NCBI RefSeq assembly: GCF_018132105.1
Contig: NZ_JWHL01000001.1
Location: 62,001 to 126,000, forward strand
Length of the DNA stretch: 64,000 bases
From: Methanocalculus chunghsingensis
GTDB taxonomy: Archaea > Halobacteriota > Methanomicrobia > Methanomicrobiales > Methanocorpusculaceae
Direction: 5' to 3'
The notes beneath the pieces were generated by a model. The model made no database searches and was not told where the DNA came from. It saw nothing but the letters and a program-made list of their open reading frames with translations. Below are positions 13,770-34,564 of the stretch, piece by piece. A program made the translations under genes and the position numbers. Positions within the stretch are counted from its first letter, which is position 1. Each line of letters starts with the position of its first letter.

Positions 13770-14660
13770 ATGAAGCTTGGGGAGACGGTGATCCTTGATA
13801 CATTTGCAGAGGCATTTCCTATCTGGGTATCACGAATCATCATTACTGCAGATACCATTGAGTGGGCGCTTGCAGCTGCACAGGAAGCGACCGGCTTTGC
13901 AACCTCTAAGATCTTCTGCCCATGTGAAGCCGGGATTGAAGGGATTGTTCATGATACCCCGGATGGACGGCCCGGCGTCTCAATCCTCATCTCTGCTGAG
14001 AAGAAACAGATGCGATCCAATGTGAGTGACCGGATATCGCAATGTATTCTCCCAGCTCCTACGGCATCGGCATTCGATGGCCTCCCTGATGCCGTCGATC
14101 GCTTCTATACCCGTATGCACTATTTCGGGGATGGCTATGAGGAAAGATGTATCATCGGTGGGAGAAACTGCTGGCGGATCCCTGTGATGGAGGGGGAGTA
14201 TATCGGAGAGGAACGCTATGGCACGGTGAAGGGGATCGCCGGAGGCAACTTCCTTGTGATGGCAGAGGATCGGTCGACGGCCCTTGTTGCAGCCGAGGCC
14301 GGGGTCCGGGCTATTGACCCTCTCCCTGATGTCATCACCGGCTTTGCCGGGGGTATCGTCGGCAGTGGATCAAAAGTCGGATGCAGAAACTATCGTTTCC
14401 CGATGCCCGCAAGTACGAACCATGCCTGGTGCCCGACACTGAGAGGTACAATTCCCGACTCCGAGGTTCCTGAAGGGGTGAACTCTATCTATGAGGTTGT
14501 CATCAATGGAATTGGTGAAACTGCTGTAAAAACGGCGATGAAGGCAGGGATTGAATCGGCTGTCGGAGCTGGCGGGATTCTGTATATCGGGGCATCGAAC
14601 TTTGGCGGGAAGCTAGGGCCGCACCGGTTCAGGCTTCACGATCTCTTCTCTTCAACATAG
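13770..14660 (+). CDS. ftr: Formylmethanofuran--tetrahydromethanopterin formyltransferase
   Basis: A 296-residue cytoplasmic enzyme that transfers the formyl group from formylmethanofuran to H4MPT, the second step of CO2 reduction to methane. Matching regions include DTFAEAFPIWVSRIIIT, CPCEAGIE, FGDGYEE, GNFLVMAEDR, GSKVGCRNYRFPMPAS and the C-terminal GILYIGASNFGGKLGPHRF. The GGAGG ribosome binding site at 13756-13760 favours the ATG at 13770 over a TTG just before it. The 3' end overlaps the convergent MOT1 transporter gene by 32 bp. The preceding enzyme, formylmethanofuran dehydrogenase, is a Mo or W protein, which gives the neighbouring molybdate transporter a metabolic logic. Confidence 0.96.
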   Translation: MKLGETVILDTFAEAFPIWVSRIIITADTIEWALAAAQEATGFATSKIFCPCEAGIEGIVHDTPDGRPGVSILISAEKKQMRSNVSDRISQCILPAPTASAFDGLPDAVDRFYTRMHYFGDGYEERCIIGGRNCWRIPVMEGEYIGEERYGTVKGIAGGNFLVMAEDRSTALVAAEAGVRAIDPLPDVITGFAGGIVGSGSKVGCRNYRFPMPASTNHAWCPTLRGTIPDSEVPEGVNSIYEVVINGIGETAVKTAMKAGIESAVGAGGILYIGASNFGGKLGPHRFRLHDLFSST

Positions 14661-15801
14661 TGCGCCCCCATCCCCTTCTTCTTTCAAGGCCATATGATGC
14701 GATCATTCCGATCACAAATGCCGGGGTGATCCCCCAAATGAGAGCGATGACTGCCATCAGGATCGTCACCGGGTAGGATGGTGACTTGGCCCCATGCTTG
14801 CCAAGCTCGATTGCAACAAAGACAAGAAGACCCCCGAAGATGCCATATGGAATTAATGTCAGTACCTCTGGTGGTGCAAATGCAACTGCAAAACCAAGGA
14901 TAAGAAGGCCGGCAATAATATTTGCCCCACCTGTCCGGGCGCCGAAACGGTACTGTGCGGCAAGGCCCCCGGCTCCATGGCACATTGGAAACCCTCCAAG
15001 AGGTGATGAGACGAGGTTCATCACGCCGATCGTCTTTGAAAGTGTGTCCGGTTTCACCTCCCGCCTCAAGAGATCGATGGTTAGCAGTGAGGTCGCAAGG
15101 ATGGCGTTTCCGAGGGTGAGTGGCATCTGTGGAATGGCAAGATGGATCGCAGCAAAAAGCCAGTCTCCGGTTGCAGGGATGATCAACTCAGGGATTGGGA
15201 TGCTCCTGAATGGTGGCATCCCCTGAGCCATGACTCCGGCAACCAGTCCGATTCCAATGACGATAAGCGATGATATGTCCGGCAGTCCGCTTCGTGATGA
15301 GGCAATGAAGAAGAAGATGACGATCCCGATTGCAACCGCTCCAAAAATAAGATCACTGATGATATATCCAAGAGCGGTCCTGATAAGAATAAGGGCAAGG
15401 CCGACCTGTATCCCCCGGATGACACTCTCCGGGACCCATCTCTGTATCCTCTCCATCCCTTTAAGATGGCCGATGATGAGGAAGACAAGACCGATGATGA
15501 TCCCGGATGCGGCTATCTCTCCCCCAGTCAGCCCTTCTGCTATGGCAATCGCTCCAATTGCCTTCATTGGCTCGATCGGAATGGGGAGACCGTAATAGAT
15601 ACCGGTGATGATGAACCATAGACCTATAAAAACGAAGGCATAGCTGACGTTAATTCCTGTTGCAATCCCTGCGCCGAGGATAATGGGAAAAATTGTCCCG
15701 AAGTCCCCGACCGACCCGGAGAGTTCGCGGAGCGAAAAACGGATTTTTTTTGTTGCCTTGGGATCTGGTTGTAATCCGTTATTCGTGGTGTTATCTGCCA
15801 C
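14629..15801 (-). CDS. MOT1-type molybdate transporter
   Basis: A 390-residue protein with about ten membrane segments. It carries the two signature stretches of the MOT1 (sulfate-transporter-like) molybdate family: ELSGSVGDFGTIFPI near the N-terminus and GGFPMCHGAGGLAAQYRFGA around residues 276-295, plus PIPIEPMKAIGAIA. Eukaryotic MOT1 imports molybdate with high affinity; prokaryotic members are assigned by similarity. The start is a GTG at 15801. It is convergent with ftr (32-bp overlap) and lies a few kilobases from the WtpABC genes, consistent with molybdate or tungstate uptake. Confidence 0.85.
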   Translation of the reverse strand: MADNTTNNGLQPDPKATKKIRFSLRELSGSVGDFGTIFPIILGAGIATGINVSYAFVFIGLWFIITGIYYGLPIPIEPMKAIGAIAIAEGLTGGEIAASGIIIGLVFLIIGHLKGMERIQRWVPESVIRGIQVGLALILIRTALGYIISDLIFGAVAIGIVIFFFIASSRSGLPDISSLIVIGIGLVAGVMAQGMPPFRSIPIPELIIPATGDWLFAAIHLAIPQMPLTLGNAILATSLLTIDLLRREVKPDTLSKTIGVMNLVSSPLGGFPMCHGAGGLAAQYRFGARTGGANIIAGLLILGFAVAFAPPEVLTLIPYGIFGGLLVFVAIELGKHGAKSPSYPVTILMAVIALIWGITPAFVIGMIASYGLERRRGWGRTMLKRRDREA

Positions 15802-15861: not shown

Positions 15862-16215
15862 TCAGGTTTTTAAAGGGATAGAAGCCCTCAGTACCTCCAT
15901 CATCTCCTGTGGAAGTATGTCCTGAGCCATTTCCTGATAGTTTTCATCAATTAATGTAAGGATTATCATGGTTCCTTTTGATGTTGTCGATATCCCCACG
16001 CGTTCCACCCGTGTGATCAACCCGTCCCTCTCCATTGAAGCAAAGAGTGGCAGAATGTAATAATGCGGAATTTCGAGATACTCGGCTATCCGTCTTGTTG
16101 GTGGGAGATTGATAGACGTGCAATTCCGGGAGAAGCTGATCGTAATGCGTTTCTCCTGTCCAAGGAGGATTTGTATAACTGCATCCAGTATCGTACACTG
16201 CTCTTCTGTAATCAT
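15862..16215 (-). CDS. Small protein, possible winged-helix regulator
   Basis: A 117-residue protein of mixed alpha/beta pattern. The segment PPTRRIAEYLEIPHYYILPLFASMERDGLITRVERVG looks like a helix-turn-helix followed by a wing, with the typical L-F-x-x-M-E-R-x-G-L-I of winged-helix regulators. It lies directly upstream of the MOT1 gene on the same strand (60-bp gap), so a regulator of that transporter is one possibility. I do not recognise a specific family. Confidence 0.55.
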   Translation of the reverse strand: MITEEQCTILDAVIQILLGQEKRITISFSRNCTSINLPPTRRIAEYLEIPHYYILPLFASMERDGLITRVERVGISTTSKGTMIILTLIDENYQEMAQDILPQEMMEVLRASIPLKT

Positions 16216-16252: not shown

Positions 16253-16474
16253 CTATTTCATTTTTCCATGGCTTTCATCCGGCATCTCTTCAAGGTAGAC
16301 GATTGTTGCTCCAGCATCAGCTGCAATCTGTTCAAGCTCAGTCTTACGGAAATGAGTACCCTCAACCTTGAGCTGGCGCTTGTCTTCTGCCTCCGATGTC
16401 ACGGCAACCACTCGGAAGCGGGGTTGTTTGACACCCGTTCCGACCTTCTGTCGTTCACGAACATAGATCTTCAT
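16253..16474 (-). CDS. Conserved small protein of unknown function
   Basis: 73 residues, highly charged, beginning KIYVRERQKVGTG and containing FRVVAVTSEAEDK and ELEQIAADAGATIVYLEE. The ATG at 16474 is preceded by a GAGGTG ribosome binding site. No membrane segment or signal peptide is present. The pattern of short strands with a central helix suggests a compact alpha/beta fold. A 14-bp palindrome sits just upstream of the ribosome binding site. Confidence 0.65.
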   Translation of the reverse strand: MKIYVRERQKVGTGVKQPRFRVVAVTSEAEDKRQLKVEGTHFRKTELEQIAADAGATIVYLEEMPDESHGKMK

Positions 16475-16698: not shown

Positions 16699-17397
16699 AT
16701 GACCATCTACATTGGTATTGATGACACCGATACAGAGACATCACGTGGAACTGGACGGCTTGCCCGGTCTATTGCCGATGAACTGGCCCCTGATTATCAG
16801 ATCATTGGTGTAAGCCGACACCAGCTCTACGTCCATGATGACATACCATACACATCTCACAACAGTGCCGCCGTCATCCATATGGAGAGTCAGGGAAATG
16901 GATCGATAAGGAGACTTCATACTCTGGTTAGAGACCTGATGATGTCGGATTTTATAGAGGGGAGCGATCCAGGCCTCTGTATCATTGAGCGATCACGGAT
17001 TGTAGATGATATCATCTCATTCGGGGGAAGAGCGAAGACCGGAGTGCTGACACAGGATGAAGCCCGTTGGCTCGCCTCCGGGCATCAGATTATCCTTGAA
17101 GGTCTTGGTGGGACCGAAGATGGTGTCATCGGGGCGCTGGCTGGTGTTGGCCTTGCCGCTTCGGGAAATGATGGAAGGTACGTTATGAAGGCAAAGACCC
17201 GTACAATGACCGGGTCAAGAACTGTCGGGGAACTTCTTGATTGTGGAATCGATAGGATCATCACCGAAGAAGGGGCTCTGATAACGGAGGGGAGGGTTTC
17301 AATGAGCAAATTCCCAAAACCTGCTCTCGTTGGCGGACAGGCGGTCTTAATTGTATCCGGATCAGATGGCGTTTATAGGGATCTTGTAGTCGGATGA
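16699..17397 (+). CDS. Stand-alone TiaS N-domain-like protein
   Basis: A 232-residue protein opening with IYIGIDDTDTETSRGTGRLA, which is the conserved IDDTD/ATP-binding motif of tRNA(Ile2) agmatinylcytidine synthetase (TiaS). It later has a glycine-rich LGGTEDGVIGALAGVGLAASG, also seen in TiaS. Full TiaS is about 420-450 residues with additional OB and zinc domains; these are absent, so it should not modify tRNA alone. It is the only plus-strand gene in this stretch and converges with the WtpC-like gene. Function is unknown. Confidence 0.7.
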   Translation: MTIYIGIDDTDTETSRGTGRLARSIADELAPDYQIIGVSRHQLYVHDDIPYTSHNSAAVIHMESQGNGSIRRLHTLVRDLMMSDFIEGSDPGLCIIERSRIVDDIISFGGRAKTGVLTQDEARWLASGHQIILEGLGGTEDGVIGALAGVGLAASGNDGRYVMKAKTRTMTGSRTVGELLDCGIDRIITEEGALITEGRVSMSKFPKPALVGGQAVLIVSGSDGVYRDLVVG

Positions 17398-17438: not shown

Positions 17439-18506
17439 CTATATCGGGTCAAGTACCCGGATTGCTGCCTCTGGTATAAGAATGGTAATCAGGTCTCCTT
17501 GTTTGACTGCTCCATTCTGTATTAATCCGGAAGGGATATCTGCATGAATCCTGTTACCAGGAAACGATCCTATCACTTCTATCAGGGCGCCATCCTTTCG
17601 GATAGAATCAACATTGCAGTCAATAGAGATCGGATTTTGAAGACTTCCATTTTCAAATCCCTTAATACTCATATCTTCTGATCGAATGCCCAGAGCGATC
17701 TTCTCACCAGTAAGCCGTTCTGTCTGAATCCGAAGATCATTTCCCCCGAGTCTGATGAGCCCTTTTTTTCCATCTCTCCCTGAGATGACACAATCAAAGA
17801 TATTTTCATATCCCACAAATGAAGCGACAGTCTTCGTTGTAGGATGATACATCACTTCTTCCTTTGTTCCCTCCGCGATAAGCTCTCCGTCATTGAGCAG
17901 GATGATCTGATCGGCAAGGTTTCGGGCTTCACTCCTGCTGTGTGTAACCTGAATGATCGTTACATTCTCTTTCTCCCGAATTAATTGGAGGTCCTGAATG
18001 AGCCGCTTTTTTGTGGGTGGATCAAGCGCAGAGAATGGTTCATCAAGGAGGAGAACCTTTGATTCAACTGCCAGCGCCCGAGCAATTGCCACTCGTTGTT
18101 GTTCTCCTCCTGATAATGTGGCAGGGTACCTTTCTTTGAGATGGCTGATGTTTAGGAGCAGAAGTAGTTCAGAGACGATCTCTTCAATCTCTCCTTTGGT
18201 CTTATGTAGTACTTTGAGACCATATCCAATATTTTTAAAGACGGTCATATGAGGGAAGAGTGTGCTGTCCTGATACACAAGTGCCATATTGCGCTTCTCC
18301 GGTGGAAGATCTGTCACATCTCTATCATTACATACTACTCTGCCTTCAGAAAGGATATGCAGACCTGCAAGAGCTTCAAGAATTATGGTCTTTCCGGCCC
18401 CGGATGGACCTATGATGAAACACCACGAACCCCTGTGGACCGAAAATGTCACTTTTTTGAGGGAAAAAGCTCCGAGTCTGAGCGTAACCTCTTCACACGC
18501 GATCAT
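17439..18506 (-). CDS. wtpC: Tungstate/molybdate ABC importer, ATP-binding subunit (WtpC-like)
   Basis: 355 residues. Walker A GPSGAGKT, signature LSGGEQQRVAIARAL, Walker B VLLLDEPFSALD and a switch His (VTHSR) are all present. A C-terminal ~110-residue extension (from about FDCVISGR) has the look of the TOBE/MOP metabolite-binding domains of ModC/WtpC, with LGIRSEDM and IHADIPSG. The start is ATG 18506, preceded by GGGAGGT; it overlaps the permease gene. It is the last gene of the nine-gene operon. Confidence 0.85.
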   Translation of the reverse strand: MIACEEVTLRLGAFSLKKVTFSVHRGSWCFIIGPSGAGKTIILEALAGLHILSEGRVVCNDRDVTDLPPEKRNMALVYQDSTLFPHMTVFKNIGYGLKVLHKTKGEIEEIVSELLLLLNISHLKERYPATLSGGEQQRVAIARALAVESKVLLLDEPFSALDPPTKKRLIQDLQLIREKENVTIIQVTHSRSEARNLADQIILLNDGELIAEGTKEEVMYHPTTKTVASFVGYENIFDCVISGRDGKKGLIRLGGNDLRIQTERLTGEKIALGIRSEDMSIKGFENGSLQNPISIDCNVDSIRKDGALIEVIGSFPGNRIHADIPSGLIQNGAVKQGDLITILIPEAAIRVLDPI

Positions 18507-19317
18507 CGTACCTCCCAAGGAACCTGGTTACACTCCTGACCAGAAGGAAGATCCCAAAACAGATCACAATCATAAGAAATGCAAGACCCTGTGCCTCTGC
18601 AATTCCCCCTGTTGTGAATCGATAGTAGATAAGTGTCGAGATAACCATTGGATAATACGCTATTATGATAACTGCAGCAAACTCCCCGATACTTCGCCCC
18701 CATGCGAGCAGGGCACCATTGACGATCTCCCGTGTAGCAAGGGGGAGAGTTATTGTTACAAACGCATAGCTGTGTGTTGCTCCAAGAGTTCGTGCGGCGT
18801 TCTCCAGATGGACAGGGACTTTTTCAAAACCCTCTCTGACAGCATTCACATAAAATGGAGCGGAGACAAATGTCATGGCTGCGACAATTCCCGGAAAAGC
18901 CTCTTCAAAGATGATGCCCACGGCAGACATGGGTGCACCGATTAATCCTTCCCGCATAAACAGGAGGTAAACAAGAATCCCCGCAACTGTATGGGGGAGG
19001 ATAAGTGGAATATCGACGATACTTTCAATGATGCCCCGAAACCGGGACTTCGTCCGGGCAAGATAATATGCAAGCGGCGTACCAATGAGGCTCAGAATCA
19101 TGACAGCACACATTCCTGCAAAGATTGTGAGAAAGAGTGCATGGAGCACTGCATGATCTCCAGCAATCCGGAGAAATCTTTCAATATCGTTTATCTGAAT
19201 CACGGTCAGTGTACCGAGAGCCAGAATAGTAACCAGTATGATTGTAGATCCTGGGATCAAAAATGGTATGAGCGATCTGTCATAATGTCTTCGCCGATGT
19301 GGATTACGTTCAACCAT
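18493..19317 (-). CDS. wtpB: Tungstate/molybdate ABC importer, permease (WtpB-like)
   Basis: A 274-residue membrane protein with about six helices. The cytoplasmic loop EAARTLGATHSYAFVTITLPLA-like segment (ENAARTLGA ... LPLA) is the EAA motif that contacts the ATPase. PLILPHTVAGILVY and WGRSIGEFAAVIIIAYYP match ModB/WtpB permeases. The ATG at 19317 follows an AAAGGTGT ribosome binding site and begins 10 bp after the binding-protein stop; an upstream extension in frame overlaps that gene and is unlikely. Confidence 0.88.
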   Translation of the reverse strand: MVERNPHRRRHYDRSLIPFLIPGSTIILVTILALGTLTVIQINDIERFLRIAGDHAVLHALFLTIFAGMCAVMILSLIGTPLAYYLARTKSRFRGIIESIVDIPLILPHTVAGILVYLLFMREGLIGAPMSAVGIIFEEAFPGIVAAMTFVSAPFYVNAVREGFEKVPVHLENAARTLGATHSYAFVTITLPLATREIVNGALLAWGRSIGEFAAVIIIAYYPMVISTLIYYRFTTGGIAEAQGLAFLMIVICFGIFLLVRSVTRFLGRYDDRV

Positions 19318-19327
19318 CCGGACACCT

Positions 19328-20314
19328 TTATTGTATTGGTTCAGGCCATGCTTCTCTACCTGTACTGAATGCATCCACCATGAAACCAAGGAATCGTACG
19401 GCTTCCTCCTTATTAGGTGCGGTTGAAGGGATGGCTGCAGCATAGACGATTGGCTGTCCTGTCCTGTCCATACCTATGGAACTGAACCGTTGAAAGCCGA
19501 GATGAACGGTTACAACCCCATATTCTTCATCATACATTTCAGACGAGAGATCGATCTCCGGGGGCAGATCAATCCAGTGGAGTCCATGCTCCTCTGCTAC
19601 ACTCCGATACTCAAATGCATAATCGATTCCGCCTGTTTCAAGGAGAGAGAGGAGAAAAATACTCCCGTCTCTGATTCTGACTTTGTCACCATCCGGTTGG
19701 ATCATCTCCGGGAGATGGATGGTAGTTCCAGAGGAGGTTGTTATGATTCTGGGTGGGGGATGAATATGATTTCCAAGCATCTCATCGAATATCTTCTCAT
19801 CATGATAGTAGTTCTCAGCAAGTTTTACCACCATCAATGCACGATACCCACAGGCATCAAGCATCGGATTTGAAAAACCGATCCGTACATCCGGTCTTCT
19901 GAGAATGGTATGCCAGTTCTCATCAGTTATCTCGTCTGCATAAGCGCTTCGCTCCGTATATGCGATTACGATAGCCCCTGTTGCAAAAGGGTAATATTCC
20001 TCGGTGAAGTTCCCCAATCCCTCCCCCATCGGTTGAAACATCATATCAGGGATGAGTGATTCGTCCGCAACGACAACAAGATCAGCCTGGCGGCGAAGAT
20101 CAGTAACCTGGCGAATGACCTGGATACTCCCATGACCATGGATCTGTACATCCACCATCGGGTAAATCTCCTCATATTCCGCTTCAATTGTGGCGAGTGG
20201 TCCAAGAGCACTGCCTGCTGCAAATACTCTCAGAGTCGTTTTTTCATCCTGCACTCCGGTACAACCGCTAATCAGAACAATAAAAACCATGAGAAGGAGG
20301 ATATACCTCATCAT
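19328..20314 (-). CDS. wtpA: Tungstate/molybdate-binding lipoprotein (WtpA-like)
   Basis: A 328-residue ABC solute-binding protein. The signal peptide ends in a lipobox (LISGC, Cys18). The mature chain begins LRVFAAGSALGPL and carries VQIHGHGSIQVIRQVTDL, the oxyanion-binding region typical of the WtpA/archaeal ModA group. SNPMLDACGYRALMV matches the diagnostic DPxxDPCGYR-like segment, with Ala replacing Pro. WtpA proteins bind tungstate and molybdate with high affinity; which one is preferred here cannot be told. It follows the molybdopterin-fold lipoprotein gene by one base. Confidence 0.85.
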   Translation of the reverse strand: MMRYILLLMVFIVLISGCTGVQDEKTTLRVFAAGSALGPLATIEAEYEEIYPMVDVQIHGHGSIQVIRQVTDLRRQADLVVVADESLIPDMMFQPMGEGLGNFTEEYYPFATGAIVIAYTERSAYADEITDENWHTILRRPDVRIGFSNPMLDACGYRALMVVKLAENYYHDEKIFDEMLGNHIHPPPRIITTSSGTTIHLPEMIQPDGDKVRIRDGSIFLLSLLETGGIDYAFEYRSVAEEHGLHWIDLPPEIDLSSEMYDEEYGVVTVHLGFQRFSSIGMDRTGQPIVYAAAIPSTAPNKEEAVRFLGFMVDAFSTGREAWPEPIQ

Positions 20315-20315
20315 C

Positions 20316-20876: not shown

Positions 20877-21700
20877 CTCATCCCTCGTCGTGTATAGAGG
20901 ATACTGCATCCTGTTATTGCTATGAACACAATGAGAGAACTCATCGGGCTTTGTTGAGCATCATGGCCTGGTTCGCTCTGCAATGACTTGGCAAGAAGCC
21001 CCTGCTCGCCCTTATATCCCCCTGAATAGACCCGTATCTCATCCACCCACTTGACTGTGAAGCCATTTGTTGATGGGTAGAGATCATAGAAGTGATGAAC
21101 CGATTGTGGCATTGTCTTTTTCATGTCATCATTTCCATAGACATGGAGCCCGTCGGTATTTGTTGAGGTATCAGCAAAGAAGACGATCCTCATGCCCGAA
21201 TAAAAGTCTGGGGGGTACCCGGTTCCCTGCCGCTCACCAACGTCCGGATCAGCTCCGTTATACCAGGTGAGGACAATGGGACCTTGTCGGGGTTCGGGAT
21301 GATAGACGTTTTCGTACGGAAACTCAACATGATATCCATCCTGTGCACGTACCATAATCTCATCACCCGGAGCTGCCCCCCCGACAAGGTCGCAGAGATC
21401 ACGAATATCTGTTCCCTTGACCGATCCTTTATCCTTGAAATTTGTGGTCTCCTCCGGATCCCATTTATCTCCATCAAAGACGGGTCCCTGATGATAATAT
21501 CTTGTTATTCCATCACCGTGGACAGGGAGGTTCTCTTCCATCCATTGGTATGTCACAGTCGTTCTGCTCATTATTTCGTCAGTTTCACTGTTGATCTTTA
21601 CAACCGTTACTTCGGTTGTTGGCGCTGCCAATGTACCTGTCATACAGAGGGATAGGACAAGGAGGGTTACAACAAGCATTCGATAGATTACTTTCATCAT
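20873..21700 (-). CDS. Exported divergent SUOX-fold protein with C-terminal membrane anchor
   Basis: 275 residues: signal peptide (MLVVTLLVLSLCMTGTLA), one domain of the type shared with the two larger proteins of this operon (WMEENLPVHGDG, YYHQGPVFDGDKWDP, VKGTDIRDLCDLVGG, NVYHPEPRQGP, GFTVKWVDEIRV), and a C-terminal hydrophobic helix (SSLIVFIAITGCSIL) followed by RR. The pattern VKGTDxxDLCDLxGG ... SVKWVxEI recalls the SUOX-fold framework in a divergent form. It overlaps the phosphoesterase stop by ATGA. Likely surface-anchored; function unknown. Confidence 0.7.
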   Translation of the reverse strand: MMKVIYRMLVVTLLVLSLCMTGTLAAPTTEVTVVKINSETDEIMSRTTVTYQWMEENLPVHGDGITRYYHQGPVFDGDKWDPEETTNFKDKGSVKGTDIRDLCDLVGGAAPGDEIMVRAQDGYHVEFPYENVYHPEPRQGPIVLTWYNGADPDVGERQGTGYPPDFYSGMRIVFFADTSTNTDGLHVYGNDDMKKTMPQSVHHFYDLYPSTNGFTVKWVDEIRVYSGGYKGEQGLLAKSLQSEPGHDAQQSPMSSLIVFIAITGCSILYTRRGMR

Positions 21701-25280: not shown

Positions 25281-25304
25281 TATTCAAAGCTCCAAAAAAA
25301 GGAT

Positions 25305-26663
25305 TTATCTCTTCTTCATAATGAAGAAAAGTCCTATGACAGCAATGGCAATTCCTGCGATTATATAAGGAAGCGGAAGATCTCTGCCGGTGGGTTCTGA
25401 CCCTGATTCACTATCTGGTGAGGATACTACTGGCAGAGGTGTTGTCTCCTGAGTCCCCGGAGTGGGCTGATCCTCAACTGGAACCGGACCCGGAGTGATC
25501 GTTGCCCCGGGAGTGAAGACAAAATCTGAGGTTGCCTGTGTTGATGAACTTCCTCCTCCTCCCGTTGGCGGGGATGGTGGTGATGGGGATCGGACTCCGG
25601 TTAATGCGAAGATTGAAAGTCCTTCAGGTGAATCTGCCTCAAAGATATAATTGCCGCCTGGATCGTTTCCAATGTACCGCGTCATCAGTGATGAGGTTGA
25701 CCCTGTATCTGATCTTCTCATGATAACAACATTATCAACACCCCCCTGTGCAATAACCCATGAAGGGCTCACAACCATCCTTATTGTTGCGGATGTTATT
25801 GTTCCCCCATCCGCTACGTTATCGATACCTGTCTTCTGGATATTAACAACAAATGCAATATCATTAATCTCTTTAGCGGCATTTTGAGCTGTGAGCAGAA
25901 AAGCGCTATTGGCGGCGGGATCCGGGTTTTTTGAGATGGTTCTGGTTATCTGTGCTGTCGGATCAGGGAATTTCTCCATTCCAATATCAAAATCGATGCC
26001 CGCAATCTCTCCATCCAGCGATGCTGTTAAACGGCTGCTGACCGCTCGTACATCGGTTATCGTTCCTCGAACGATCGATCCACTTACCTCCGGTGGTTCG
26101 GCTGTCTGTAACCTGATGCTCTCCCATCCGCCACCAGGATTCTCCAGAAGAATTGCATTTCCATCAGTCGTTACAGTTCCTGTTGTGGTTTGTTGATTGA
26201 TCGCAACAATCTGTTCCCCTCCTGACTCTGTTGTTTCAATTGTGCCGATCTGAAAGGAATTATCCCCTGAGCCGACAGGTGGTACCTCTCCACCGGAACT
26301 ATTGAAGGTCAGGGCAAGCTCCATCACTTCCCCGCTGCTGAAGGGTATCTCCTGGCTGGCTTTGAGGTCTCCTATCCAGAATGTAATTAGAGGATTAATT
26401 GTAGCGATGAGATCTTCTTCAGTTGCCGCAACGATCAGACGCTCACCAAAAATCCCTGTCTCTCCAAAAATACCTCCTTGTCTGGTTGCGATCGATCCTC
26501 TCTCATTATAATTGATTTTTGCGGTAATCAGTTCCTCTTCAGGTACAGCTATTCCGTCAAGTGTTGCTGTTCCAAAAAATTCCACAGGTTTTGGTGGAAC
26601 TGCACCAACTGTTCCAATCAGTGTAAGAATAAAAAAAATGGTGAGGATTGTTTTTAGATCCAT
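25305..26663 (-). CDS. PGF-pre-PGF-type surface protein with C-terminal anchor
   Basis: 452 residues: signal peptide (ILTIFFILTLIGTVGA), an N-terminal domain of the kind seen in archaeal surface proteins (FFGTATLDGIAVPEEELITA), a central beta-rich region, a PGF-pre-PGF-like segment (about 255-362; VNIQKTG ... NVVIMRRSD ... YIFEADSPEGLSIFALTG), a Pro/Gly/Ser/Thr-rich stalk (PSPPSPPTGGGGSSS) and a terminal helix (LPYIIAGIAIAVIGLFFI) followed by KKR. The stalk-plus-helix ending is that of membrane- or wall-attached proteins. It lies 11 bp after the 1327-residue protein gene. Confidence 0.75.
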   Translation of the reverse strand: MDLKTILTIFFILTLIGTVGAVPPKPVEFFGTATLDGIAVPEEELITAKINYNERGSIATRQGGIFGETGIFGERLIVAATEEDLIATINPLITFWIGDLKASQEIPFSSGEVMELALTFNSSGGEVPPVGSGDNSFQIGTIETTESGGEQIVAINQQTTTGTVTTDGNAILLENPGGGWESIRLQTAEPPEVSGSIVRGTITDVRAVSSRLTASLDGEIAGIDFDIGMEKFPDPTAQITRTISKNPDPAANSAFLLTAQNAAKEINDIAFVVNIQKTGIDNVADGGTITSATIRMVVSPSWVIAQGGVDNVVIMRRSDTGSTSSLMTRYIGNDPGGNYIFEADSPEGLSIFALTGVRSPSPPSPPTGGGGSSSTQATSDFVFTPGATITPGPVPVEDQPTPGTQETTPLPVVSSPDSESGSEPTGRDLPLPYIIAGIAIAVIGLFFIMKKR

Positions 26664-26674
26664 GTTTGTCCGTC

Positions 26675-29600
26675 CTATGTTGAGATTGCGGCAAGTTCGC
26701 CACTACTCTTCAGATAGATCCAGTATCCGTTCGTCGGATACAGGAGCCGGCCATCGCTGTAGCTTCCAGAACCCTCTCTGATGATCGCAGTAGCATATCT
26801 CTGTTCGCCTGCATCGTACCCGATGGTCTGTGTCCATGCGTCTCCGAGGGAGAGGAATGTGTCACGAGCGGTAGCCGGCTCAATATCGGTAAAACCAACT
26901 GCGTTCCACCCTTTCTGAAGCTCTATCGTTGGGGGTGTCATGAGTGGCTGGTTCATGAAGGTGAGCGGGATCTCTTTCCCCTGTGTGCTGTAAATCCAGT
27001 ACCCTTTCAGTGGTGTAATAAGATCTGTCTCGCCCAGCGCCTTCCAGGTTTTAAATACTGCATCATATTCAAAGATACTGTGATCTCCTGTGTCTACCTC
27101 AGCAAAGATCGATGCTGTGTTGTTTCCCGAATCAAGGCGTTTTGGTACAGAGATGAAGTTCCACCCTTCCTTGAGATGAATAACAGCATCTCCTGACACT
27201 GGTTCGGGGAAGGTGATTTCAATCTCATCGATACTCCCAACTCTCTGGCGACCGGATGTCAGATCTGATCCGACGAGACGGAGTGGCCAATATTGATCTG
27301 AGAGTGGCTGGCCATTTATTTCATCAGCGACGATGATATTGTTGTTCCGAGCAACGACCGTGCTGTGGAATGTTGCAGAAAAGTCATCCTCAGTACCTTT
27401 TACTCCATCGGGACCATAATCTATGACGGTGACATCATATCCAGCTACCGCAAGATCGTCGCGGAATGGATCTGATCCATAATCATGTTTATTTTCATCA
27501 TCAACCCACCCGACAAGTGTCCAGAGAGGCATACCCGACCATTCGTTCCCATCATTATCGATCCATGTGGCGAGGTGTGAATCCCCGGCCATCGCACAGG
27601 CCTTTCCTGCTTCAAAGTATGCTCTTTCAATGGTGTCGGTGATGGCCCCCGTCAGGCGGAGTGTCCAGTCTTCACGTGTTCCGGTGTGAATCTCTATCGT
27701 GACAATATTCTTATTCGAACATCCGGCTGCGGATGGATACTGGATTCCACCACTCCAGAAGTAATGCCAATATTCTTCTTTCAGGGTAGCCCGCATGTCA
27801 TCCGCACCAAATATACCATCTGGTGTGTTGAAGAAGAGCCGGTATCCATCTTTATAGTCCGGCACATACCCCTGACGTTCGGTCCACCAGGCGACGATTG
27901 CCTCACCCTGTCGCTCCAGCGGAGAGTTGAGGTTTGTATCATCGAGTTTCATCACATATCCATCAGATGCTCTGAGGATAATCTCGCTTCCTTCCGGTGC
28001 TCCTCCGACGAGATCGACGAGATCTTTAATCGATGTTCCCCGAACGACCTCATCAACCTTGTTTGGATTTTTATCTTCAGCGGGGTTCCAGAGATCATCA
28101 GGATCGAAGGTTGGACCCTGGAATCTGAGTTGGACACCGTCTTCTCCGCCATATACATGAAGGTTCTCCTTCATCCAGAGATAGTCCTTTGTAACATCAT
28201 CCAGAACGGTGACACCATCTGCTGCATACCTTACAATCCTGATGGATGGTGCTTCTGTTGGTGGTTCAAATGCTGTCAGTTCGATTGTTTCAATATTCCC
28301 GACACTTAAACTGCCGGTTGCCCCCTCGCCAACGAGCCGAAGCGGATAGCTGTTTCCTTCGATCGGCTCGCCATTGAGGAGATACGCAACGATGTAGTCA
28401 TTCTTGTTATTTGCGATATTCTGACTTGTGAAATCCTTGCTGTATGGGGATGCTCCTCCGGATGAGACGATAATTGTATATCCATCTGTGGCAAGCCCTT
28501 CATTGAAGGCATTTGTGCCAGTCATCAGGTCATCATCAACGATACCCGCGAGCCTCCAGAGCGGAATACCTGTCCAGATATCCTCTCCATCACTCCAGGT
28601 TTCGCTCATCGTCTCAGCCATTTCAGTAAAACTGCTTTCTGAGATCCTGGCTGAAATCTTATCCCCTTTCAGGGTTAGTACCCATTCATCCTCTGCCGGC
28701 TCCTCCGGAAGGCCATTGATGGTGATGGATGCAATCGAACCTATACGTTGCCCGCCACTTGTCAGGGCTGAGCCCTGGAGCCGGAGTGGAAAACCATTAT
28801 CCTCGGCAAGGGGTGCGGCATTCATCATATTGGCAACGATAAATCCATCACTTCGTGCAATATCAGCACCATTGAACTCCCTTGAAAAACCATCCTGAGC
28901 AGTGATAGTTACAGTATAGCCGGAGGCACGCTCATCATTGAATCTCCAGTGATTCGCGCCATTGTAGTCATCAACGACGGCAAGAAGATACCAGAGTGGC
29001 ATCCCGGTCCACACCTGATCCTGAGTGTCGGTATACATTCCGGCATGGCCGCAGGCAACTCCCTCTTCAAACTCTGACTGAGAGAATGAGCGGCTATATG
29101 CACCATTCAGGGTGATTGTCCACTCTGTGGTTGGAACGGGCAGCCCGATAAGCTCGATGGTAACTATATTTCCAATCTTCTGGCCGCTTGAGACGTCAGA
29201 TCCAACCAGCTGGAGTGGGAAACAGGGTTTTGCCTTCTCTCCAATAGTTGCAGGGAGTGGCTCGCCGTTTAATGTATTTGCAACGATGATATTATCGTTC
29301 CGTGCGACTGTGGCACTCTGGAAGTTGATCGAGTATCCGTCGCCTGCAATAACCTTGACTGAATAGCCTTGAGCTGCAAGCTCATCATTGAACGCGTCAC
29401 TGCCATGTGAATTTTCATCATCGACATATCCTACCAGCCACCATAATGGCATTCCGGACCAGACGTTCCCATCATCGTCAGTATAGGTTGCGACATGAGG
29501 GTTTGTCTGACAATCTGTTCCTGCCTCGAAATAGGTTCGATGAATGATCTCTTCCCGAGCTCCTTTCAGAGTGAGGATCCAGTCTTCTGCTGGTGGCTCA

Positions 29601-30658
29601 TCGACAGAGATCTCCATCCGGATGTATGCTTCAGCTGTTTCAAAAGAAAGTGGCCTGACACCGTAAAAAAACTCGACGATATCTCCATCTTCAAGAGAAT
29701 AGATGTTAAGTCCGTCGTTTGCGGAATTACCCCAGTCATCGAGTGTGTATCCATTGACGGCACATTCCCAGGTTCTGGTCGGTCCGTCATCAGGTCTTTC
29801 ATAGAGATAATCTTCTATTCCATCAAGAAGAAGGATTCCTCGGCTGCTGATTGCACGATCGTTGATAGTAAGGGGAAATCCGGTTGCTTCAAGTGCGCCA
29901 AGTGGTGTCAGCCTGCTAATCTCGTATGATTCTCCTGATGTTGCACGTACATTCACCGACTCGTCTGAGAGCTCCATTGTTCCATCAAAGAGGATATCAG
30001 TTTCATCATCCGGTGGAGCTTCTTCATTGCTCATAATCCGGATTTCACTGATATATTTCACTGAGAGTCCGGTTGTTGTCGGATAGATGTCAAAATAATG
30101 CCAGTACTCCTCGGGGAATGTCTCCCGCATATCATTTACACCAAAAACGGTATCATCTGCGAAGAAGACAAGCATCATTCCGTCACTAAAGTCCGGAACA
30201 TATCCGTCACCTGCACGGTACCATGTAATACCTATCGGTCCCTGCCTGGATTCCGGATTATAGACGTTGTTATATGGGAAATCCTTGGAGAACCCGTCGA
30301 ATGCACGAACCCTGACGGTTTCACCATCGCTCATACCTCCGGCAAGATCGCAGATATCAGCGAGATCGGTACCCTTTACCGCTCCCTGATCCCTGAGGTT
30401 GACATCCTCCCCGGGATTCCAGGGGTCCCCATCAAATACAGGCCCCTGATGGAAGTAACTGGTCTCTCCATCTCCAAGTACAGGAAGGTTTGCTTCCATC
30501 CATTCATAATCGACGACCGTTTCGTTGATGATCGTCGTTTCGTCAGCTGCATACTTGATAACCCGCAGCTCGGTCGTTGCTGCCGTGACAGGTGCGATGA
30601 TCAGCCCTATCATCAACAGAATCAATAGTATTCTGTAACGATTCCCAAAATCAATCAT
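26675..30658 (-). CDS. 1327-residue exported protein with repeated molybdopterin-fold domains
   Basis: Signal peptide to about residue 27 (Sec-like, no twin-arginine). Domain order: type A domain 28-212 (WMEANLPVLGDG, FHQGPVFDGDPWNP); DUF4430-like region 222-333 (GDIVEFFYG); three type B SUOX-fold repeats at 358-505, 512-648 and 658-795; a second type A domain 801-990; a fourth type B repeat 997-1150; two C-terminal units 1158-1235 and 1244-1325 (GWNFISVP ... KGYWIYS; GWNAVGF ... NGYWIYL). Type B repeats share W-[ST]-G-[MI]-P-L-W, DGY/DGF, NGEPL and PL-R-L-V-G-S-D, the framework of sulfite-oxidase-type domains. A Cys stands before the WSGMPLW strand at 383, 536 and 1021 but is missing in the third repeat. 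It is the first gene of the operon ending in WtpABC. Confidence 0.8.
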   Translation of the reverse strand: MIDFGNRYRILLILLMIGLIIAPVTAATTELRVIKYAADETTIINETVVDYEWMEANLPVLGDGETSYFHQGPVFDGDPWNPGEDVNLRDQGAVKGTDLADICDLAGGMSDGETVRVRAFDGFSKDFPYNNVYNPESRQGPIGITWYRAGDGYVPDFSDGMMLVFFADDTVFGVNDMRETFPEEYWHYFDIYPTTTGLSVKYISEIRIMSNEEAPPDDETDILFDGTMELSDESVNVRATSGESYEISRLTPLGALEATGFPLTINDRAISSRGILLLDGIEDYLYERPDDGPTRTWECAVNGYTLDDWGNSANDGLNIYSLEDGDIVEFFYGVRPLSFETAEAYIRMEISVDEPPAEDWILTLKGAREEIIHRTYFEAGTDCQTNPHVATYTDDDGNVWSGMPLWWLVGYVDDENSHGSDAFNDELAAQGYSVKVIAGDGYSINFQSATVARNDNIIVANTLNGEPLPATIGEKAKPCFPLQLVGSDVSSGQKIGNIVTIELIGLPVPTTEWTITLNGAYSRSFSQSEFEEGVACGHAGMYTDTQDQVWTGMPLWYLLAVVDDYNGANHWRFNDERASGYTVTITAQDGFSREFNGADIARSDGFIVANMMNAAPLAEDNGFPLRLQGSALTSGGQRIGSIASITINGLPEEPAEDEWVLTLKGDKISARISESSFTEMAETMSETWSDGEDIWTGIPLWRLAGIVDDDLMTGTNAFNEGLATDGYTIIVSSGGASPYSKDFTSQNIANNKNDYIVAYLLNGEPIEGNSYPLRLVGEGATGSLSVGNIETIELTAFEPPTEAPSIRIVRYAADGVTVLDDVTKDYLWMKENLHVYGGEDGVQLRFQGPTFDPDDLWNPAEDKNPNKVDEVVRGTSIKDLVDLVGGAPEGSEIILRASDGYVMKLDDTNLNSPLERQGEAIVAWWTERQGYVPDYKDGYRLFFNTPDGIFGADDMRATLKEEYWHYFWSGGIQYPSAAGCSNKNIVTIEIHTGTREDWTLRLTGAITDTIERAYFEAGKACAMAGDSHLATWIDNDGNEWSGMPLWTLVGWVDDENKHDYGSDPFRDDLAVAGYDVTVIDYGPDGVKGTEDDFSATFHSTVVARNNNIIVADEINGQPLSDQYWPLRLVGSDLTSGRQRVGSIDEIEITFPEPVSGDAVIHLKEGWNFISVPKRLDSGNNTASIFAEVDTGDHSIFEYDAVFKTWKALGETDLITPLKGYWIYSTQGKEIPLTFMNQPLMTPPTIELQKGWNAVGFTDIEPATARDTFLSLGDAWTQTIGYDAGEQRYATAIIREGSGSYSDGRLLYPTNGYWIYLKSSGELAAIST

Positions 30659-30894: not shown

Positions 30895-31701
30895 ATGCAT
30901 CGAAGACGTGAAATTGAATCAAAACTGAAGGGTGAAACCCTTGGGCGAAGAGGATTGCTCAGGAGATATGAAGGGCGTGAGCAACTCAGGATAGCACCGA
31001 ATGTGAATGTTGTTAAGATTGGAGGACATGGCATCGTCGATTATGGAGCACCGGTTCTAAAGCCCCTTGCTTCCGAGATCGGTGCACTTTCCCGTGATCA
31101 TCAGATGCTAATTGTGACCGGTGGCGGAGTGCGGGTTCGGCATATTCTGGATATCGGTCTCGATCTGGGGATGCCGACCGGTGTTCTGGCCGAACTATCC
31201 GGTAAGGTAAGTGAGCAGAATGCCATTATGATGTCCGTTCTTCTCTCTGAATATGGGGGTGCCAGAATTCATTCCCCTGATCTTCTTGAGCTTCCAATGC
31301 TCCTGAAGATGGGGATCCTTCCTGTAACGCATGGCACTCCACCCTACGGACTATTTGAATCTCCCCCGGACATTGGAATGATCCCTCCCCACCGGACAGA
31401 TACTGGTGCCTTCCTCATTGCCGAGGTTCTTGGGGCAAAATCCTGTATTCTCATGAAGAATGTTGATGGACTCTTTACAAGCAATCCACTGACTGACCCT
31501 CATGCAGAACTGATCGAAGAGATACGTGCATATGAGATTCTTGATATGGAGATGGATGATCTTGTCCTTGAAGAGAAGGTTGTTGAGATGCTTCCGCATG
31601 CAAAAGCCGTTCGTGAGATCCAGATCATTAATGGGCATCTCCCAGGTATGCTGACACGGGCACTGAAAGGGGAGCGTATCGGGACTATCATAAAAGCATA
31701 A
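30895..31701 (+). CDS. Molybdenum storage protein homologue (amino-acid-kinase fold)
   Basis: A 268-residue cytoplasmic protein of the UMP-kinase-like fold. It resembles the Azotobacter molybdenum storage protein subunits MosA/MosB along its whole length: VVKIGGHGIVDYGAPVLKPL, VTGGGVRVRHILDIG, LSGKVSEQNAIMM, PPYGLFESPP, IPPHRTDTGAFLIAE, KNVDGLFTSNP and the C-terminal VREIQIINGHLPGMLTRAL and GTIIKA. In bacteria a MosA3B3 cage stores polyoxomolybdate or tungstate clusters using ATP. A single subunit gene is present here, implying a homohexamer. The first ~35 residues are basic. The GAGGTGATC sequence just upstream serves as ribosome binding site. It heads the run leading into tupABC. Confidence 0.82.
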   Translation: MHRRREIESKLKGETLGRRGLLRRYEGREQLRIAPNVNVVKIGGHGIVDYGAPVLKPLASEIGALSRDHQMLIVTGGGVRVRHILDIGLDLGMPTGVLAELSGKVSEQNAIMMSVLLSEYGGARIHSPDLLELPMLLKMGILPVTHGTPPYGLFESPPDIGMIPPHRTDTGAFLIAEVLGAKSCILMKNVDGLFTSNPLTDPHAELIEEIRAYEILDMEMDDLVLEEKVVEMLPHAKAVREIQIINGHLPGMLTRALKGERIGTIIKA

Positions 31702-31718: not shown

Positions 31719-31781
31719 AAATCATTAATACTGCCGTTAAAGGTAATTTAGTTTAATTAATTTGATGTACTCTATCAAAAA

Positions 31782-31804
31782 TAACAATCTTTATATTATT
31801 GTTA
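31782..31804. promoter_or_regulatory. Inverted repeat over the tupA TATA element
   Basis: TAACAAT (31782-31788) and ATTGTTA (31798-31804) flank a 9-bp centre that includes the TATA-like TTTATATT (31790-31797). The TATA element is about 31-38 bp upstream of the tupA ATG at 31828, so the transcript would have a very short leader. The arms (AACAAT/ATTGTT) resemble the outer ends of the palindrome at 30783-30807 (AACAT/ATGTT). A repressor bound here would block TBP. Confidence 0.45.
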
Positions 31805-31827
31805 CTTCTAATACATTCTCGTTCACC

Positions 31828-32748
31828 ATGAATTGTAAGGGTTTTATACTTATAGGTGCCTTGATTATTTCCGGGCTCCTTGTTGCAGGATGTGTTGACA
31901 GCGAGACACAGCCCGGAGTGCCCGAAGAGCTCCGGATCGCAACCACAACCAGTCTCTATGATACCGGGCTCCTTGACCATCTCCAGCCGATCTTTGAGGA
32001 GAGATACAATGCAAAACTGCTGATCGTCTCTGCAGGGACCGGCAAAGCACTTGAATACGGTATGAGAGGCGATGTTGATGTGATGATGGTTCACGATCGA
32101 GCCCGTGAAGATACCTTCATCGCAGAAGGCCATGGTGTGGAACGCCGTGTCATCGCGTACAACTACTTCGTTATTCTCGGCCCTGAGTCAGATCCTGCCG
32201 GGATTCGTGGAACATCACCCGAAGAAGCATTCCGGACACTTTTTGAACAGGGAACTGCCGGAGAATCAGGTATTGCTTTTGTCTCCCGTGGAGATGAGTC
32301 AGGTACTCACGCAAAGGAGAAGGCGATCTGGAGATCTGCCGGATATGACTATGCAACCGATATCCAGAACTCCGGGATATGGTATGTCGAGGCAGGACGT
32401 GGAATGGGCGAAACCCTGGTGATGGCAAATGAGAAGGAGGCATATACCCTTTCAGATAAAGGAACTTTCCTTGCATACAAAGGAGATCTTGGGATCGTTC
32501 CGGTCGTCGATGAAGGGGAGATCCTTCTGAATGTCTACTCCACCATGCTGATCAACCCCCAGACACACACCGGGATTGATACCGATCTTGGAAAAGCATG
32601 GATCAACTTCCTCATCTCAGATGAGGCTCAAGAGGAGATTGCGACATTTGGTGTCTCCGAGTATGGAGAACCCCTCTTCTTCCCTGCACAAGGCAACTGG
32701 GAGAGAATGGGTGTTCCACAGTCTGAAGTGACAGAGCCGGTGCTCTGA
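31828..32748 (+). CDS. tupA: Tungstate-binding lipoprotein TupA
   Basis: 306 residues with a lipobox (LLVAGC, Cys21 from the ATG at 31828). The mature chain contains the TupA hallmark ATTTSLYDTGLLD (the TTTS oxyanion-binding motif), AGTGKALEYGMRGDVDVMMVHD, the SRGDESGTH motif and GMGETLVMANEKEAYTLSD. TupA proteins bind tungstate with very high selectivity over molybdate. The start at 31828 is chosen because the lipobox then sits 21 residues in. A permease and ATPase follow. Confidence 0.93.
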   Translation: MNCKGFILIGALIISGLLVAGCVDSETQPGVPEELRIATTTSLYDTGLLDHLQPIFEERYNAKLLIVSAGTGKALEYGMRGDVDVMMVHDRAREDTFIAEGHGVERRVIAYNYFVILGPESDPAGIRGTSPEEAFRTLFEQGTAGESGIAFVSRGDESGTHAKEKAIWRSAGYDYATDIQNSGIWYVEAGRGMGETLVMANEKEAYTLSDKGTFLAYKGDLGIVPVVDEGEILLNVYSTMLINPQTHTGIDTDLGKAWINFLISDEAQEEIATFGVSEYGEPLFFPAQGNWERMGVPQSEVTEPVL

Positions 32749-32799
32749 TAACACTATCTTTTTCTTTGCCATCGGCGTAGTAAACAGGGATTACCTTGT

Positions 32800-33486
32800 A
32801 TGAATGAGATCATCAGCGGTTTCCTCACCGCTCTTCACCTGATCATCACACTTGACCCCGGGGTTATCGAGATCTCGATCCGGAGCATCCTGATCTCGCT
32901 CTCTTCAACGCTTATTGGAGCCTTGATTGCAGTTCCTATCGGGGCGACAATTACCTTCTCTGAATTTACCGGGAAGCGTTTCCTTGTCAACATTATTCAG
33001 ACCCTCTATGCTCTCCCAACGGTTCTTGTCGGCCTATTTGTCTTCCTGCTGATATCACGTGCTGGTCCACTGGGATTTATGCGCCTTCTCTTCACCCCGG
33101 AAGGGATGGTAATTGCCCAGACAGTTCTTATTCTGCCAATCCTGGTTGGCCTGACGATATCTGCTTTAAAAGGTCTCGATACGACGATTCTTGATACTCT
33201 TCGGTCTCTTGGCGCAACAAAGATACAATTTCTGCGTTCAGTTGTAAAAGAAGCACGTTATGCTATTATGGCCGCTGTTGTCCTCGGTTTTGGTCGCGCT
33301 ATCTCTGAAGTTGGTGCCGCGATTATGATCGGTGGAAATATCCGGGGACATACCCGTGTCCTGACGACCGCGATCTCACTTGAGACATCCATGGGAAACC
33401 TGGCCGTCTCTATTGCCCTGGGTATTATTCTTCTCATGATAGCACTTGTGATCAATCTCCTCCTTGCAGTTGTGCAAAACCGGTGA
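32800..33486 (+). CDS. tupB: Tungstate ABC importer permease TupB
   Basis: A 228-residue membrane protein with about five hydrophobic helices. The EAA loop is visible as TLRSLGATKIQFLRSVVKEA, and LGFGRAISEVGAAIMIGGNIRG matches TupB/ModB-type permeases. It follows tupA by 51 bp and ends 4 bp before the tupC start. With tupA and tupC it forms a complete tungstate importer. Confidence 0.93.
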   Translation: MNEIISGFLTALHLIITLDPGVIEISIRSILISLSSTLIGALIAVPIGATITFSEFTGKRFLVNIIQTLYALPTVLVGLFVFLLISRAGPLGFMRLLFTPEGMVIAQTVLILPILVGLTISALKGLDTTILDTLRSLGATKIQFLRSVVKEARYAIMAAVVLGFGRAISEVGAAIMIGGNIRGHTRVLTTAISLETSMGNLAVSIALGIILLMIALVINLLLAVVQNR

Positions 33487-33490
33487 TACC

Positions 33491-34564
33491 ATGCTTGAGA
33501 TACATAATCTGTCAAAGCAGTTTGGTGATTCAGAGGTGCTGAAAGGGGTCTCGCTGAAGGTTCCGAAAGGAGAGATATTTACCATCATCGGACCTTCCGG
33601 GGCCGGGAAATCAACACTTCTTCGCCTGATAAACCTCCTTGATACCCCGACCGAAGGAACCATCCTTCTCGATGGTACGGATATTCATAAAGAGAAGAAT
33701 ATGGCGGTCAGACGGCGGATGGGGATGGTCTTTCAGAAACCGGCGATCTTTAACCAGTCCGTTTATGAAAATGTCGCTCTCGGTCTTCGTTTCAGGCAAA
33801 TTGATGAAAGGGTTATCCGAAAGAAGGTTGCTGATGCGCTTGCGATCGTCGGCCTCACCGGTTTTGAAGAGAGGAAGGCAAAAACACTATCCGGGGGTGA
33901 GATGCAGCGGATCGCTCTTGCACGTGTCCTCGTCACCGATCCTGATGTTCTTCTTCTGGATGAGCCTACCGCAAATCTTGATCCCGTCTCTGTCAGGGTT
34001 ATCGAAGAGCTTGTGCAACGGATTCATCATGAGTTTCAGACGACGATTATCATGTCAACTCATGATATGTTCCAGGGACAGAGACTTGCCCATCGTATCG
34101 GGGTGATGATAGATGGAAAATTCGCACAGTTCGGCACACCACGCGAGATCTTTACAACTCCGAATGACAGATTTGTGGCACGATTCGTTGGTATTGAAAA
34201 TGTCATTGAGGGTAGAATCATCTCTAAGGATAGGGGCATAGCATTTATTCAGGTTGGGCGAATCACCATTCAGGCACTATCTCCTCTCCCAGTCGGAACA
34301 GATGTCACCATCTTCTTCAGACCTGAGGATGTTGCGATAAGTTGTTCTTCATCCCATGCAGAAAGTGTACGTAATGTATTCCCGGGGCAAATTGTATCCA
34401 TTACGCCCATGGGCCCATATAATCGCATTATTGTTGATTGTGGGGTGAAGATCATTGCGATGATAACGTACATGGCAACTGAGGATCTCGGTTTGAAGGA
34501 AGGATCTGATGTCTGTGTCTCATTCAAGGCAACAGCGCCTCATATTCTTGCAGCAGAAGAGTGA
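33491..34564 (+). CDS. tupC: Tungstate ABC importer ATPase TupC
   Basis: 357 residues: Walker A GPSGAGKST, signature LSGGEMQRIALARVL, Walker B VLLLDEPTANLD and the switch His in MSTHD. The C-terminal ~110 residues (after FVGIENVIEGRI) form a TOBE-like domain with FFRPEDVAI, which probably senses oxyanion levels. I choose the ATG at 33491; a longer reading would overlap tupB. Its domain plan parallels that of the WtpC-like ATPase at 17439-18506, so the locus carries two parallel importers. Confidence 0.92.
   Translation: MLEIHNLSKQFGDSEVLKGVSLKVPKGEIFTIIGPSGAGKSTLLRLINLLDTPTEGTILLDGTDIHKEKNMAVRRRMGMVFQKPAIFNQSVYENVALGLRFRQIDERVIRKKVADALAIVGLTGFEERKAKTLSGGEMQRIALARVLVTDPDVLLLDEPTANLDPVSVRVIEELVQRIHHEFQTTIIMSTHDMFQGQRLAHRIGVMIDGKFAQFGTPREIFTTPNDRFVARFVGIENVIEGRIISKDRGIAFIQVGRITIQALSPLPVGTDVTIFFRPEDVAISCSSSHAESVRNVFPGQIVSITPMGPYNRIIVDCGVKIIAMITYMATEDLGLKEGSDVCVSFKATAPHILAAEE

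Follow-up and report, generated by a model that had tools for sequence, protein, structure and literature searches.

The gene at 30895-31701 of the window, meaning the whole 64,000-nucleotide stretch of Methanocalculus chunghsingensis DNA that was analysed, is, on the basis of its sequence, a single-gene member of the molybdenum storage protein (MoSto, MosA/MosB) family, and we refer to it as MOS. The main new result concerns its pairing with c11, a small protein of no known family: the one-gene MOS is almost always accompanied by c11, the two-gene form seems to do without it, and this almost perfect pattern of presence and absence exposed a new small protein family. The features of the window referred to below are the following.

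30895..31701, plus strand: MOS, single-subunit MoSto-family protein of 268 aa (phmmer to MosB 2e-58; model Z 36 to MoSto; tree)
16253..16474, minus strand: c11, conserved partner protein of about 73 aa and of no known family (tblastn and alignment; co-occurrence with MOS)
16699..17397, plus strand: TiaS-like protein, related through its kinase domain to TiaS and methanogenesis marker 11, accessory partner (domain likeness; co-occurrence)
15862..16215, minus strand: small winged-helix-like protein (wHTH) of 117 aa, a frequent archaeal MOS neighbour (a relative scores 20.2 against HTH_24, just under 21.9)
14629..15801, minus strand: MOT1-type molybdate transporter (PF16983, 182.1 bits)
17439..18518, minus strand: WtpC-like ABC ATPase (305 against a cut-off of 440)
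18493..19443, minus strand: WtpB-like permease (228.2 against 340)
19328..20314, minus strand: WtpA tungstate-binding protein (TIGR03730, 317.9 against 242.75; NF003196 missed, 300.4 against 355)
31762..32748, plus strand: TupA-like oxyanion-binding lipoprotein encoded immediately 3′ of MOS, with a likely start further in, near 31829 (NF041772, 180.2 against a cut-off of 400)
32800..33486, plus strand: TupB-like permease (NF038017 over cut-off; NF041773, 169.5 against 320)
33464..34564, plus strand: WtpC-like ABC ATPase with a TOBE domain

The MOS reading frame was confirmed on the plus strand, with an ATG start. Searched with phmmer against PDB sequences, the protein matched MosB (2ogx_B) at E = 2.1e-58 over query residues 27-268 and MosA (2ogx_A) at E = 2.6e-48 over residues 7-267, the next family being archaeal UMP kinase, from 1.2e-11; judged by these sequence comparisons, the similarity to MoSto is far beyond chance. 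The nearest named relatives are Methanocalculus entries, for example L040 at 82%. Pfam returned AA_kinase alone (90.6 bits). The genome (2.13 Mb, 99.5% complete) holds one copy of a MoSto-family gene, confirming the single subunit gene of the original prediction; its six further AA_kinase matches, with identities read from the sequences, are an aspartokinase, ArgB, isopentenyl phosphate kinase (IPK), UMP kinase, an MfnE-like protein and one FtsZ-like protein, the last (L006) a false match.

An AlphaFold model of MOS, computed from a 53-row alignment (pLDDT 93.0, pTM 0.90), superimposed on the MoSto chain 6h74_B with a Z-score of 36.0 and an rmsd of 1.5 over 255 residues that take in the N-terminal arm, and on MosA with a Z-score of 35.4; the best UMP kinase reached 25.3, with an rmsd of 2.3 over 215 residues. 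The part of the model before residue 28 was aligned by MoSto chains only, among the 50 matches listed. Since it has an amino-acid-kinase fold with catalytic lysines and UMP kinase is its next fold match (Z 25.3), MOS might be taken for a kinase acting on a metabolite, for instance a UMP kinase or an isopentenyl phosphate kinase, a reading that we consider highly improbable: MOS passes no NCBIfam equivalog cut-off and misses those of UMP kinase and IPK by far (58.4 against 158.05 and 47.1 against 120), the genome has separate genes for both enzymes, and Ala99 occupies, in 41 of 41 archaeal-group rows, the column at which the organism's own UMP kinase has an Asp, presumably the ribose-binding one. 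The archaeal UMP kinase PyrH (Pyrococcus furiosus 2bmu) shares the core fold with MOS but lacks the N-terminal arm and the PPY..IPPHR segment, has the Asp in place of Ala99, and gives Z-scores of 24-25 compared with 36. The cut-offs, the copies found elsewhere in the genome, the tree and the fold ruled out UMP kinase, IPK, MfnE and ArgB as identities of MOS, and placement among UMP kinases, named in the original prediction as the refuting outcome, was not found.

Residue sites were compared in an alignment of 63 family rows with the organism's own UMP kinase and IPK. According to extracts from two reviews, His156 and Glu129 of MosA are ligands of the Mo8 cluster; three symmetry-related His140 residues of MosA are described, in the extracted text, as ligands of the W3 cluster. 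In MOS, E129, H140 and H156 of MosA are replaced by a gap, L136 and G152, and they are kept in none of the other 41 archaeal and Geobacteraceae rows, so that polyoxometalate storage is not readable from the MosA sites. The end-to-end motif agreement with MosA/MosB previously claimed for this protein thus holds for all the quoted motifs (IPPHRTDTGAFLIAE, DGLFTSNP, VREIQIINGHLPGMLTRAL and GTII) but not for the cluster ligands, and the alignment check of the cluster sites that had been suggested went against it. MosB likewise lacks these three ligands. MOS retains K41 and K188, equivalent to the ATP-site residues K42 and K189 of MosB (MosA has E190), together with R167, D169 and the MoSto-specific insertion PPY..IPPHRTD, which is missing from the organism's own UMP kinase and IPK. 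With ligands lost and lysines and insertion kept, MOS is a MoSto-family protein with a pocket chemistry unlike that of MosA. Group-specific candidate residues are H45, D129 and E155 (41 of 41 rows), H126 (34 of 41) and H146 (36 of 41, and also 9 of 12 Desulfobacterota single-gene rows).

A tree of 63 sequences and 270 columns was calculated with IQ-TREE (LG+F+G4, 1000 ultrafast bootstraps), the rows being drawn, after dereplication, from 190 reading frames of at least 225 aa, with the two A. vinelandii chains added and Azospirillum represented by two plasmids. A root set by two distant kinases was weakly supported at the base (0.33-0.94), and the tree was therefore used for unrooted splits only. 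Archaeal and Geobacteraceae sequences were separated from all other MoSto-family sequences with a support of 100. The two-gene proteins, that is, MosA/MosB (five rows) and four Desulfobacterota tandem-pair proteins, formed one clade (98), within which MosA and MosB were grouped at 81, and this clade was nested beside Desulfobacterota single-gene proteins (97), so that for any root outside it the two subunits are derived. The two paralogous subunit genes that strictly define a MosAB heteromer were not found for MOS, which has one match in the genome and is placed outside the two-gene clade. Membership in the MoSto family, as originally predicted, is accordingly borne out by sequence, fold and tree.

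Relatives of MOS occur in 132 of 199 genomes of the order of the source organism at E ≤ 1e-20; at E ≤ 1e-30 they were found in 67 of 392 genomes of its phylum and in 18 of 247 genomes of the phylum of Geomonas oryzae. A scan of genome contigs confirmed 341 relatives among 499 candidate stretches, the best 80 of which include Borrarchaeota/Sifarchaeum, Geobacter, Geomonas oryzae (an isolate) and Pelobacter entries. None was detected in the viral contigs and phages searched, and plasmid matches to the family were MosB-like genes in 10 Azospirillum records only (NC_013859.1 and nine others), where they are mostly annotated 'uridine kinase' or 'uridine monophosphate kinase'. In two of these stretches (L143 and L144) the next gene is annotated as molybdenum storage protein subunit alpha, so the kinase annotation is likely wrong.

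The distribution of c11 follows that of the one-gene MOS. In the archaeal draw of 392 genomes, c11 was found in 70, among them all 67 with MOS, and 322 had neither; the three with c11 and no MOS match (G217, G226 and G240) are 70-85% complete. In these exceptions to the pairing the c11 gene (L194-L196) lies near asd and arsenic/flavodoxin-type genes. The listed genomes of the mixed-presence genera g1, g2, g5, g7, g11 and g13 have both genes or neither, g39 being the exception. In the bacterial draw of 247 genomes, c11 occurred in 16, namely in 15 of 15 single-MOS genomes, adjacent to MOS in each, and, weakly (5e-10) and alone, in G676; it was absent from the three genomes with tandem MosA/B-like genes (G520, G565 and G594). 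The plasmids searched yielded no c11. The two-subunit form is represented only by the three genomes with tandem pairs and by two stretches of Azospirillum plasmid. Fisher tests of the pairing gave 1e-72, 3e-20 and, for single against pair genomes, 0.001, values that ignore shared ancestry and so overstate significance.

Of 76 archaeal matches to MOS, counting fragments, 71 lie no more than 1,033 bp (median 94) from a c11 gene on their contig; the two genes are further apart in the window (14.4 kb) and in G019 (8.8 kb), and three matches lie on contigs without c11. Loci of a Methanospirillum-type genus (L145-L151, g5) carry two MOS with two c11, the tandem copies each having their own c11 and falling outside the MosA/MosB clade; this is an independent duplication of the MOS-c11 unit. 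In G113 a MOS match (C1:954018-954341) that is truncated and contains an in-frame stop adjoins an intact c11 and is possibly a pseudogene.

In an alignment of 35 rows, R6, R8, K10, P18, H41, E46 and A56 of c11 are invariant and K2, I3, G14, V25, R43, K44 and A51 nearly so; the invariant basic residues and histidine would suit anion binding. Searches of Pfam, NCBIfam, PHROGs, PDB sequences, Foldseek and VIA returned no significant match, and the model (pLDDT 71.7), a beta-beta-alpha-beta arrangement, gave no significant fold match. A conserved small open reading frame, 'c6', proved to be an antisense reading of c11, and clusters 12 and 15 of the neighbour clustering look like shadow open reading frames.

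A small protein with conserved basic residues, placed divergently 5′ of MOS in 58 of the 71 close archaeal pairs and present with every Methanospirillum-type MOS copy, could also regulate the transcription or translation of the MOS gene locally instead of being a physical partner of its product. We regard this as fairly unlikely, for the orientation varies (opposite strand 3′ in 11 of the 71 pairs and same strand 5′ in 2, same strand 3′ in Geobacter and other arrangements in other Desulfobacterota), archaea have a separate winged-helix protein, and in the window 14.4 kb separate c11 from MOS. The varied orientation would rather speak for action at the protein level.

Two ABC importer sets are encoded in the window, a TupA/TupB/WtpC-like one directly 3′ of MOS (31762-34564) and a Wtp-type one (17439-20314). 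The original prediction had placed MOS beside two tungstate importers; both sets are there, and WtpA exceeds the TIGR03730 cut-off, but the TupA- and TupB-like proteins score under their equivalog cut-offs, so that for the 3′ set tungstate is the probable oxyanion. In the closest relatives (L038, L039 and L041) the order is MOT1, wHTH, c11, TiaS-like, MOS, substrate-binding protein, permease and ATPase, contiguous with MOS. The window has this gene set in two parts: the genes for c11, wHTH, TiaS-like protein and MOT1, none of which figures in the original prediction and the last of which adds a third Mo transporter to the two importer sets, lie 13.5-16 kb from MOS, and the region 17439-30658, with the Wtp importer and surface proteins, comes between TiaS-like and MOS. 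The secreted or surface-type block (20316-30658, minus strand) includes a surface-type protein with Oxidored_molyb domains (26675-30658), a protein with PEGA repeats (22950-25280) and one with related repeats (20316-21700). The window contains no Rfam element besides one tRNA.

We clustered the open reading frames of 89 related loci and of the window region and then used nine proteins as tblastn queries against these loci and the entire window. Across these 90 loci, many of them close relatives, MOS was found in 90, c11 in 82, the ABC ATPase in 72, wHTH in 70, the permease in 66, MOT1 in 54, the substrate-binding protein in 52, the TiaS-like protein in 36 and MoeA in 11. As controls we took 40 length-matched stretches from 20 archaeal genomes. 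Compared with these, 40 full-length archaeal MOS loci contained c11 in 37 against 0, wHTH and the Tup-like permease in 33 against 0 each, the substrate-binding protein in 32 against 0, MOT1 in 28 against 0, the TiaS-like protein in 20 against 0 and MoeA in 5 against 0; the ATPase, in 35 against 11, is by itself weak evidence because it occurs in so many controls. At least one Mo/W candidate, the ATPase counted, is present in 41 of 43 dereplicated loci of at least 9 kb. In five of eight Geobacter-group loci (L090, L101, L104, L105 and L107), MOS is preceded by MoeA and by TupA-, TupB- and TupC-like genes; four of these five also have MoaC and three a MogA-like gene. The gene context supports a link of MOS to Mo/W; it does not separate storage from sensing or metal insertion. 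Near MOS in four Desulfobacterota loci (L178, L179, L181 and L183) we also observed a protein that combines an HTH of the excisionase type with a domain of the molybdopterin-biosynthesis (periplasmic-binding-like) type (L178, 3211-4128), possibly a Mo/W-responsive regulator.

The TiaS-like protein is similar to the TiaS kinase domain and to methanogenesis marker 11 at scores under the NCBIfam cut-offs. In the 247-genome draw it was present in 17 genomes, the 15 of 15 with a single MOS (unlinked in several) plus G693 and G740, and in none of the three pair genomes; among 58 hand-chosen archaeal genomes it was found in 23 of 34 with MOS, 2 of 21 without and none of the three with c11 only. As a partner of MOS it is accessory rather than core. 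Its occurrence in all the bacterial single-MOS genomes, the position of the Geobacter MOS downstream of moeA, moaC and mogA-like genes, and the missing MosA ligands would fit a MoSto scaffold used as an enzyme with no store, MOS acting with c11 and the TiaS-like kinase as a Mo/W activation, sorting or insertion ATPase in cofactor assembly. We think this unlikely, considering that MOS keeps the MoSto-specific insertion and the N-terminal arm, that MosB, part of a store, is also without those ligands, and that 11 of the 34 archaeal MOS genomes lack the TiaS-like gene.

We somewhat favour the interpretation that MOS is a homomeric, ATP-driven store of Mo/W oxyanions that works with c11 and differs from MosA in its pocket chemistry. 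In such a scheme the Tup, Wtp and MOT1 transporters would bring in molybdate or tungstate, MOS, assembled as a homomeric, probably hexameric, ATP-binding cage, would take the oxyanion up, hold it as such or as a metal-oxide store, and hand Mo/W on to cofactor synthesis. The homomeric cage, also put forward in the original prediction, is still a predicted assembly. As the dedicated partner of MOS, c11 would probably supply a function later absorbed into the MosAB subunits, candidates being anion binding, cluster nucleation, release or stabilisation, and it may be a subunit, assist loading or release, or act as a regulator. From the same observations we draw, tentatively and with considerable doubt, an evolutionary reading in which the ancestral MoSto was a homomeric ATP-driven cage with a small basic c11 carrying anion- or cluster-handling residues, and the MosA/MosB heteromer was derived from it when, after duplication, its subunits took over these functions and both c11 and the TiaS-like kinase were lost.

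Set against MosA/MosB of Azotobacter vinelandii (MoSto/WSto), MOS is homologous over its whole, single-domain length at 36-43% identity, with the same fold and N-terminal arm, the MoSto-specific insertion and the ATP-site lysines of MosB; it differs in having one gene instead of two, in lacking MosA E129, H140 and H156, in falling outside the clade of MosA/MosB and the tandem pairs, and in being accompanied by c11 and set among Mo/W transporter genes. The Tub/Mop/ModG TOBE-domain stores of tungstate or molybdate, such as Tub of Eubacterium limosum, share with MOS the proposed intracellular buffering of W/Mo but, in the extracted text of PMC11980592, have a small TOBE fold unrelated to MoSto and use no ATP. 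The excerpt of a 2019 study (PMC6448029) describes MoSto as having no known homologues, and the excerpts of PMC13328260 and PMC4704411 do not mention MoSto in methanogens. Our search of the open-licence PMC literature found no paper describing an archaeal, methanogen or Geobacter MoSto. CDD has a MosAB-type amino-acid-kinase entry, so some MOS members may already be annotated; the pairing with c11 is not known to have been described.

To our knowledge, no protein other than MoSto is known to use ATP for building discrete metal-oxide clusters. The single-subunit relatives in Methanomicrobiales, some Asgard archaea and Geobacter-type bacteria make the question of assembly testable in a simpler homomer, and, if the reading of an ancestral two-component system were true, c11 would represent a novel type of protein that handles oxyanions or polyoxometalates. 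The formylmethanofuran and formate dehydrogenases of methanogens need Mo or W, and MOS is a candidate Mo/W buffer for these organisms.
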